A DNA stretch of 64,000 nucleotides. Source: Alphaproteobacteria bacterium (lineage in GTDB: Bacteria > Pseudomonadota > Alphaproteobacteria > UBA2136 > UBA6156). The stretch covers positions 742,983 to 806,982 of the forward strand of contig JAIXQG010000002.1 in the NCBI GenBank assembly GCA_027485835.1. The letters run 5' to 3'. This document shows, piece after piece, positions 3,395 through 37,818 of this stretch. The notes beneath the pieces were generated by a model. The model searched no databases. It was not told the origin of the DNA and saw nothing but the letters and a program-made list of their open reading frames with translations. Made by a program: the position numbers and the translations under genes. How positions within the stretch are numbered: position 1 is the stretch's first letter; the number at the start of each line of letters is the position of its first letter.

Positions 3395-3411
3395 ATTCGG
3401 GCCTGATTCAC

Positions 3412-3522
3412 GGCGCGGGCTAAAACCGCCCCCAAGCACGCTTTGGCGTGGCTTATGTACCCTTGCTTCCGTACACCGCGCCACGCCAAATCACACTTGG
3501 ATGACGGTTTTAGCCTCGCGCG
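3412..3522. repeat. palindromic intergenic element, family 1, copy 1 (short form)
   Basis: About 111 bp form one long imperfect hairpin. The outer arms are GCGCGGGCTAAAACCG and its complement near 3506-3522. The inner arms are TTTGGCGTGG and CCACGCCAAA, and GTAC / GTAC closes the top. It is nearly identical (about five differences) to 15598-15710 and a diverged match to 31101-31212. This copy lacks the second module seen in the other two. It lies between fliL and fliM. Confidence 0.85.
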
Positions 3523-15586: not shown

Positions 15587-15597
15587 GGTGTGACAGA

Positions 15598-15806
15598 GGC
15601 GCGGGCTAAAACCGCCCCTAAGCACGCTTTGGCGTGGCTTATGTACCCTTGCTTCCGTACACCGCGCTATGCCAAATCGCACTTGGATGACGGTTTGTAG
15701 CCTCGCGCGCGGGGGCGACGTCGCTGCGCGCCGGGCTCTTATTTCGCATCTGCGATGCGGTTGGTGTGTGGGAAGTTATGCGCTTTGCGTATGTGTCGCG
15801 CCAAAA
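15598..15806. repeat. palindromic intergenic element, family 1, copy 2 (long form)
   Basis: Module A (15598-15710) is almost identical to 3412-3522. Base changes in the inner arm (CTATGCC for CCACGCC) turn G-C into G-U pairs, so the hairpin survives. Module B (about 15735-15806) is shared with 31213-31286 and ends in TCGCGCCAAAA. The ends GGCGCG and CGCGCC are inverted. It fills the gap between the convergent TPR-like gene and fliP. Confidence 0.85.
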
Positions 15807-21723: not shown

Positions 21724-21758
21724 AAAGCACCGAACTCTACTGAGCGCGGTGCTTTTTT
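21724..21758 (+). terminator. Rho-independent terminator after flgE
   Basis: AAAGCACCG and CGGTGCTTT pair with a 14-base loop and are followed by a T-rich stretch. It lies 14 bp past the flgE stop. Confidence 0.8.
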
Positions 21759-21837
21759 GTTTTTCCTTATTCCTGCGCTCCGCATGTACTTTTTGTACAC
21801 TTACGGTGCTCGGACTTGCGGATAAAACAAAAAATCC
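21752..21837. repeat. palindromic element, family 2, intergenic copy before fumC
   Basis: A long hairpin of about 85 bp. The apex CGCTCCGCATGTAC / GTACACTTACGGTGCTCGG matches the element inside rnpB (25292-25330) almost base for base. The lower stems (TTTTTTGTTTTT and AAAACAAAAAAT) differ from the rnpB copy but still pair with each other. It lies between two terminators. Confidence 0.8.
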
Positions 21838-21892
21838 CTCGCGCTCAACGAGTTCCGGAGCCGAATCATCTGTTTCCAAATGATGAAAAAGT

Positions 21893-25047: not shown

Positions 25048-25054
25048 AGTCTCC

Positions 25055-25576
25055 TGCTGCACGTATAAGCCGGGTTCTGTGCCTTATCTTGCGATAAGGT
25101 GATCACCATTCATCTGCGCACTGACTTGCGTCAGGCGTCGAGCTGCCAACCCGGACTCTCCTCCGCTTGCGCTTCGGACGCGGACCGCGTCGCTGGGAGT
25201 CCCTATTTAGCATTGCACCCTCCGGCAGGTTACCTCCGAGTAGGCTCCAGAATCTACTATGCAGGGCGCTTTTTGAGCTTTGCTTGCCTTCCGCTCCGCA
25301 TGTACTGGCGTGTACATTTGCGGTGCTCAGTCTTCACAAATCTCAAAAATCACCTCTGCCTAGCGATTCTGGAACCTACTCTCGCCCGTTCTATTGCTAG
25401 ACACGGCGGTGGGCTTTTACCCCACCTTTTCACCCGTTCCTGATTGCTCAGGTGGTTCTTTTCTGTGGCCCTGTTGGTCTGGCGGGAGTCGCCAGCCCGG
25501 ATATTCTCCGGCCGGTGGCCCGTGGGTGCCCGGACTTTCCTCGGAAGTTGCCCTCCGCGGTGACCCCGTGCAGGGG
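25055..25576 (-). ncRNA. rnpB: RNase P RNA (type A) with an inserted palindrome
   Basis: The catalytic RNA of RNase P, which matures tRNA 5' ends. On the minus strand the 5' side has GAGGAAAGTCCGGGC (CR I), then GGTGAAAAGGTGGGGTAA, and the 3' end has ACAGAACCCGGCTTAT (CR V). P1 is CTGCACG (5') with CGTGCAG (3'), which fixes the ends near 25573 and 25057. The molecule is about 520 nt, more than a typical alphaproteobacterial rnpB. The excess is due to an insert of about 110 nt (25255-25364) at the tip of P12, flanked by a 17-bp stem (25238-25254 with 25365-25381). Confidence 0.95.
25255..25364. repeat. palindromic element, family 2, inserted in P12 of rnpB
   Basis: A hairpin of about 98-110 nt. 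Arms TTTTTGAG and CTCAAAAA, outer GCAGGG and CCTCTGC, and apex CGCTCCGCATGTAC / GTACATTTGCGGTGCTCAG. The apex is shared with 21775-21812. The element extends P12 without breaking other conserved parts of the RNA. Confidence 0.85.
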
Positions 25577-31087: not shown

Positions 31088-31100
31088 CCGCTTTCTTCTA

Positions 31101-31286
31101 GGCGCGGACTAAAATGGCCCCCTGAAACTTTTTGGCGTGGCTTAAGTACTCCATGCCTGTACACGGCGCCCCGCCAAAAACTTCCAGGATGACCGTTTAT
31201 AGCCTCGCGTGTGGTGCCTCATCATTCCGCCTGCAGCGGTTGGCGCTAGGAGAGCGATGCGCTGGTGCGCATGTCTCGCGCCAAAA
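31101..31286. repeat. palindromic intergenic element, family 1, copy 3 (long form)
   Basis: Module A (31101-31212) begins GGCGCGGACTAAAA and ends TAGCCTCGCG like copies 1 and 2, with many changes in between that mostly keep the arms paired (TTTTTGGCGTGG with CCCCGCCAAAAA). Module B (31213-31286) matches the second half of copy 2 and ends TCTCGCGCCAAAA. It lies between convergent accD and lptB. Confidence 0.8.
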
Positions 31287-37709: not shown

Positions 37710-37818
37710 TTTATAAAGGCTAGAAAGGCGGCCTGAAATGTTTTGTCCTCAGTTGCGTAGCCCGCTACGCGCCCTCGGCCAAAACATTCCATCCCATCCT
37801 TTCTATCTCTTTATAAAA
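37710..37818. repeat. palindromic intergenic element, family 3, between ftsL and ftsI
   Basis: A nearly continuous hairpin of 109 bp: TTTATAAAG / CTTTATAAA, TAGAAAGG / CCTTTCTA, AATGTTTTG / CAAAACATT, and GCGTAGC-CC-GCTACGC at the tip. No other copy is seen in the window. It ends 30 bp before the ftsI start. Confidence 0.8.

Follow-up and report, generated by a model that had tools for sequence, protein, structure and literature searches.

The rnpB gene and the site of its insert

The window, i.e. the whole 64-kb stretch of DNA that was analysed, carries a minus-strand gene for the essential RNase P RNA in the order amidase-rnpB-mraZ-rsmH (Table 1). This gene order and the kinship assigned to the genome by the analysis software are the basis for calling the DNA alphaproteobacterial. 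A preliminary description of this DNA had put the length of rnpB at about 520 nt; the Rfam search of the window returned RF00010 over 527 nt with a score of 164.3 bits (gathering score 100) and with model positions 1-367 all aligned, while no other Rfam family reached its gathering score in the window. With a structure scoring above the Rfam cut-off, the product is predicted from sequence to be a class A RNase P RNA. The gene is single copy, this match being the only one to RF00010 in the genome (1.53 Mb in two contigs).

Table 1. Positions of rnpB, its helices and the palindromic elements in the window
Feature	Position	Strand	Basis
rnpB, bacterial class A RNase P RNA with inserted palindrome	25050-25576	minus	RF00010, 164.3 bits
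Type I palindromic element (R1 model core) inside rnpB	25246-25375	+	R1, 121.8 bits, E 4e-30 (copy used in building R1); fold z -9.3
Insert including 17-nt outer arms, probable full extent	25238-25381	+	Arm complementarity, outer-arm matches, gap in G002
P14 hairpin of rnpB, GCAA loop, intact, directly 5' of the insert in the RNA	25386-25406	minus	Aligned with G002 and G004-G009
P13 hairpin of rnpB, intact	25408-25426	minus	Rfam alignment and rnpB of relatives
P12 hairpin of rnpB, short, normal, without insert	25432-25456	minus	Rfam alignment
Second type I element, between the flgE stop codon and fumC	21729-21860	+	R1, 134 bits (R1 building sequence)
Type II element	3411-3520	+	R2, 95.8 bits, E 1.5e-22
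Type II element	15597-15707	+	R2, 92.2 bits; same site occupied in G001 and G002
Type II element 3' of accD	31100-31209	+	R2, 91.3 bits; type II at the same site in G002

The inserted sequence is a palindrome of ~130-144 nt, the edges of which are approximate to a few nucleotides. Its outer arms (25238-25254 and 25365-25381, 17 nt each) are 94% complementary and enclose 110 nt, and the region folds with -81 kcal/mol compared with -44.9 kcal/mol for shuffled sequences (z = -9.3), which agrees with the hairpin of about 110 nt reported earlier. The insert had been assigned to P12, a placement that has to be abandoned since P12, P13 and P14 (helix names that we take to apply from the type A RNase P RNA structure) are all present. 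The order in the RNA is a short P12 with a GCAA loop, P13 with a GGUAAAAGC loop, P14 with a GCAA loop, the insert and then the sequence AGGUAACC; the Rfam alignment draws its last S-domain hairpin across the insert. P13 and P14 are tabulated for bacterial type A RNase P RNA only (PMC2858038).

The site was settled by comparison with the rnpB genes of relatives, which places the insert in the specificity domain, just 3' of P14. In G002, a member of the same genus (MAG UBA6156, DIUO01), rnpB lacks the 122 nt that correspond to 25241-25362 of the window, the sequence joining directly in the BLAST alignment; a 26-nt hairpin with a GCAA tetraloop follows P14 where the insert sits in the window, and it could be either a remnant or an older hairpin of the host. 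The complete rnpB genes of G004-G007 and G009 display P13, P14 and the directly following junction with no extra hairpin, and there is none in the part present of G008 rnpB (matched from model position 156 onward, where a contig ends). No rnpB was found in G001, so that the third congener is unreadable at this site. Because the insert is predicted to form a single separate helix next to P14 in the transcript, while P12-P14 and the catalytic core stay intact, the insertion is probably tolerated.

Extra helices are common in rnpB, and the 26-nt hairpin of G002 stands at the very place of the insert, as would be expected if the latter were no more than an ordinary length variant of an RNase P helix. 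We give this explanation next to no weight: the additional helix is absent or tiny in the other readable genomes of the family, and the homology of the insert to dispersed copies, described below, contradicts it.

Type I palindromes

The 14-mer at the apex of the insert has exact matches at 21776 and 25292 of the window and six exact copies in the genome (none for the reversed control), every one of them within a full palindrome of ~130 nt. The earlier proposal that the insert shares its apex with the hairpin ahead of fumC and is a dispersed element was therefore well founded. An apex match with one mismatch (L008) was discarded as probably due to chance, there being no palindrome of the type I kind around it. 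A covariance model, R1, was built from eight type I copies, including those in rnpB and at 21729, and detected 11 loci in this genome. As the rnpB copy contributed to the model, its R1 match arises by construction; the homology of the insert rests instead on the apex copies in the genome and on the palindromes surrounding them. R1 matches were found in 16 of the 21 genomes searched (this one and 15 others); the order members G003 (54% complete), G011 and G015 gave no R1 match, and all other order members did. When two type I copies were run against Rfam at a relaxed threshold, only chance matches and no known family were obtained. Type I is a dispersed family with a core of ~130 nt; including outer arms, its members span up to ~145 nt. 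One locus, L084, is a remnant that has undergone an internal deletion and kept both arms; a full-length copy lies at the orthologous gene pair in G002.

Longer outer arms are present in a subset of type I copies, as judged by eye and by gapped scoring of the flanks; this comparison overturned the limit of about 6 bp suggested by ungapped flank pairing. Over its outer 12 nt, the rnpB stem agrees with the outer arms of elements elsewhere at 11/12 (L159 of G004) and 10/12 positions (L193 of G009; p about 0.001 against random 12-mers), so that the 17-bp stem was at least partly carried in by the element. Consequently, the stem that had been noted around the insert is real, but its interpretation as a pre-existing stem of the host RNA is not upheld.

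In an alignment of 67 type I copies, 90.6% of cells were paired (71.7% after shuffling) and 468 double changes were counted (119 after shuffling), affecting 38 of 42 pairs; sliding the partners destroyed the pairing signal. These counts lean toward R1 because the alignment was fitted to that model, the effect being nevertheless far above both controls.

A second family with the same apex

A search with the apex pattern ATGTAC-N(3-10)-GTACACT brought up more palindromes, with stems unlike those of type I; the two types have the apex ATGTAC..GTACACT in common. The model R2, derived from eight of these type II palindromes, identified 28 loci in this genome once the opposite-strand shadows of the same palindromes had been removed. 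There are many type II loci in G001 and G002, and many more in G001 than here. Beyond these three genomes R2 gave only two weak matches, and type II is absent from the other genera of the family; type II is a second hairpin family, limited to the genus and new here. A weak type II match in the window (37712-37812, 27 bits, E 1.6e-4) is possibly a decayed copy. Some type I copies of G001 and G002 bear an apex resembling that of type II and give weak R2 matches as well, which suggests that cores may be exchanged between the two types.

Occupied, empty and swapped orthologous sites

The genomes compared are mostly fragmented assemblies, judged by contig number and completeness. The site between flgE and fumC holds a type I element here, nothing in G001 (TAG-GACGTG-GATGAAAAA) and a type II element in G002; a more distant relative (L092) has no element there. 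At 15.6 kb a type II element is found here and in G001, and a type I element in G002, while the accD site is occupied by type II both here and in G002. The sites that were compared define no target-site duplication. Comparison of orthologous sites thus establishes, at the level of sequence, that the elements are mobile, as had been supposed from the window alone: the insert is missing from rnpB of G002, and empty and swapped sites occur elsewhere. The mechanism is what we infer. The checks proposed in the preliminary description, namely an RNase P model, the rnpB of relatives and a genome search for the apex, returned a match over the full RF00010 model, genes without the insert and six exact copies; neither a long helix common to all relatives nor a lack of further apex copies, its stated grounds for rejection, was seen. 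Since the same sites in congeners can be occupied by type I, by type II or by nothing, mobility and the putative enzyme become directly testable.

Gene context

Most copies begin ~0-35 nt past a stop codon or abut the end of a tRNA gene, and they often precede the terminator of the upstream gene. The elements avoid intergenic regions between divergent genes, where 8 of the 106 copies with both neighbours called are found (our own gene calls). No element was seen inside a tRNA in the loci scanned; in G004, elements abut the 3' ends of tRNA-Ala (L149 and L154), and in G007 an element fills the gap between tRNA-Val and tRNA-Asp (L207). Three copies were flagged as lying within genes, where gene calls near contig starts are unreliable.

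Such positions, just past the stop codon and often ahead of the gene's own terminator, are those expected of 3'-UTR elements acting at the RNA level, as terminators or mRNA stabilizers of the upstream genes. We regard this possibility as improbable. The rnpB copy lies within a gene, its model strand being opposite to that of rnpB, 24 type I copies are antisense to both of their neighbours, mostly still on the G-rich strand, and the uniform orientation described next holds though genes occupy both strands.

Strand and position in the genome

All 39 copies in this genome (11 type I and 28 type II) are on the + strand (chance 2e-12), and the GC skew of that strand was positive in 19 of the 19 readable stretches among 20 sampled 8-kb stretches of contigs C1 and C2 (L105-L124; the 20th consists of N). 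As a rule, the leading strand is the G-rich one. Over all genomes, the locally G-rich strand carries 104 of 116 type I and 28 of 28 type II copies; for type I the figure is 68/68 when G009, G012 and G013 are excluded. G009 has 14 of 20 copies so oriented, and G013, from another family, displays a weak bias (16/20), with mixed orientations in four of its six multi-copy contigs. In the family outside this genome, a single orientation was found in 27 of 27 contigs with at least two copies (42 agreements, 2e-13), a count in which a few copies at G004 contig ends may be duplicates. Several G004 contigs start at an element (L151, L152, L160 and L161), which suggests that the repeats break the assembly and that some copies may be counted twice. 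Since most of the double-antisense copies remain on the G-rich strand, the bias does not simply follow from gene direction.

Element density tracks GC skew in this genome (rho 0.74), and 36 of the 39 copies are located within 43% of it, assuming the order C2 then C1 and with the arc picked after seeing the data. The skew showed no switch of sign along C1 or C2 in the 19 readable stretches; either the ends of the two contigs mark the origin and the terminus, or replication runs to an unusual degree in one direction. In G007, a very strong local skew (0.14-0.41) was seen on the element strand (L205-L213).

Strict orientation and the clustering of 36/39 copies in a high-skew arc are also what functional chromosome sites would display, for example sites that a protein of replication or segregation binds in one orientation only, spread and kept by selection, the rnpB copy then being an accident of turnover. 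The heavy compensatory change in the stem around a conserved apex points the same way, as do some sites common to different genera and those re-occupied by the other type. On the other hand, copy numbers and sites differ greatly among congeners, type II is absent from the family's other genera, one site in G001 is unoccupied and one copy has landed in rnpB. On balance we consider selected chromosome sites unlikely, while giving them more credence than any other alternative considered here.

Proposed mode of spread

The reading that we favour, with a probability of roughly 0.6, is that the rnpB insert is a REP-like miniature mobile hairpin that spreads via the lagging-strand template by means of a putative enzyme. 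This reading takes the repeat family, its paired stem and the empty and swapped orthologous sites as observed, and adds movement as a single strand, which the strict strand bias suggests by pointing to spread through single-stranded DNA at replication forks. The model strand of the element would always be on the G-rich strand, and so would have the leading-strand sequence, which is also that of the exposed lagging-strand template. There, the element would fold as a single strand, the putative enzyme would recognize it via the conserved apex and bulges, and single-stranded sites left exposed would take up the folded element, by copying or by joining. Insertions would survive mostly just past stop codons or at tRNA 3' ends because they do no damage there. 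The strength of the covariation counts against this reading, as it exceeds what is expected of purely selfish, simply decaying DNA. Further points against it are the weak strand bias in G013, the 14 of 20 copies in G009, the compared sites that define no target-site duplication and the negative enzyme searches given next.

The Y1 transposase domain (PF01797) was not found in any of 18 genomes of the order, this one included, and was found in five control genomes; no reverse transcriptase was found in the genus, on which ground that enzyme was rejected as the mobilizer. The Y2 transposase PF04986 (IS91/Helitron) gave no match in the genomes, and likewise none in the controls. Because Y1 is absent from the 18 genomes and reverse transcriptase from the genus, the mobilizing enzyme would be neither of these two. 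The fullest form of the proposal, i.e. two apex-sharing hairpin families that insert on one strand only of the replicating chromosome and swap sites, with an enzyme other than a Y1 HUH protein or a reverse transcriptase and with rnpB as one accepted site, we advance tentatively, at somewhat less than even odds.

If the favoured reading is true, a mobile palindrome has been tolerated inside a ribozyme gene and the orientation of a repeat family marks the direction of replication along draft contigs; the bias against the C-rich strand would serve as a test of hairpin-repeat spread through the lagging-strand template.

Relation to known repeats

Like REP/REPIN sequences, the present elements are short dispersed palindromes, mostly intergenic and at gene 3' ends. 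Of the two marks of a classical MITE, terminal inverted repeats and a target-site duplication, the arms of the elements are paired, and the sites compared yielded no duplication. The elements differ from REP/REPIN in their other motifs, in the very strict replication-strand orientation within this family and in their length, REP units being shorter than single hairpins of ~110-145 nt. Outright membership in REP/REPIN, with mobilization by TnpA-REP, would account for the palindromic, intergenic placement near stop codons, which REPs share (PMC12306157), and for movement on single strands, since REPs have been proposed to be mobilized on single strands by a Y1 HUH enzyme (PMC6006769), and REP/REPIN (BIME) palindromes to move as folded single strands (PMC6006769, PMC12306157). 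The absence of a Y1 HUH gene from all 18 genomes of the order and the excess length make such membership very improbable. IS200/IS605 elements (IS608, ISDra2) use the lagging-strand template and recognize hairpins (PMC6006769), and would have both in common with the present elements; the comparison concerns the mode of action alone, as there is neither a Y1 transposase nor an autonomous partner among the sequences found.

A likeness to the palindromic elements of Rickettsia (RPEs) had also been noted. These are palindromic repeats of ~150 nt in small alphaproteobacterial genomes, some of them inside genes (PMC10969869), and the likeness holds in size and palindromy alone. It does not extend to the targets: RPEs have been described chiefly as in-frame inserts of protein genes (PMC10969869) and conserve a reading frame, whereas the present copies lie at gene ends and in one RNA gene, and none of them was found to interrupt a protein gene in frame and to encode a conserved peptide.

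No palindromic element within a bacterial rnpB was found in the openly licensed literature, which need not cover all reports. Repetitive DNA in the RNase P RNA gene has a parallel in cyanobacteria, where rnpB carries STRR repeats; these are short tandem repeats, in contrast to the palindromic insert described here. The gene is also unusually long in G016 (L023, 545 nt) and G027 (L034, 522 nt), with no type I match. In G013, from another family, a type I element is located 32 nt beyond the end of rnpB (L020:1875-2006), and G037 has a weak type I match (E 0.017) at the same place after rnpB (L015:1879-2007).
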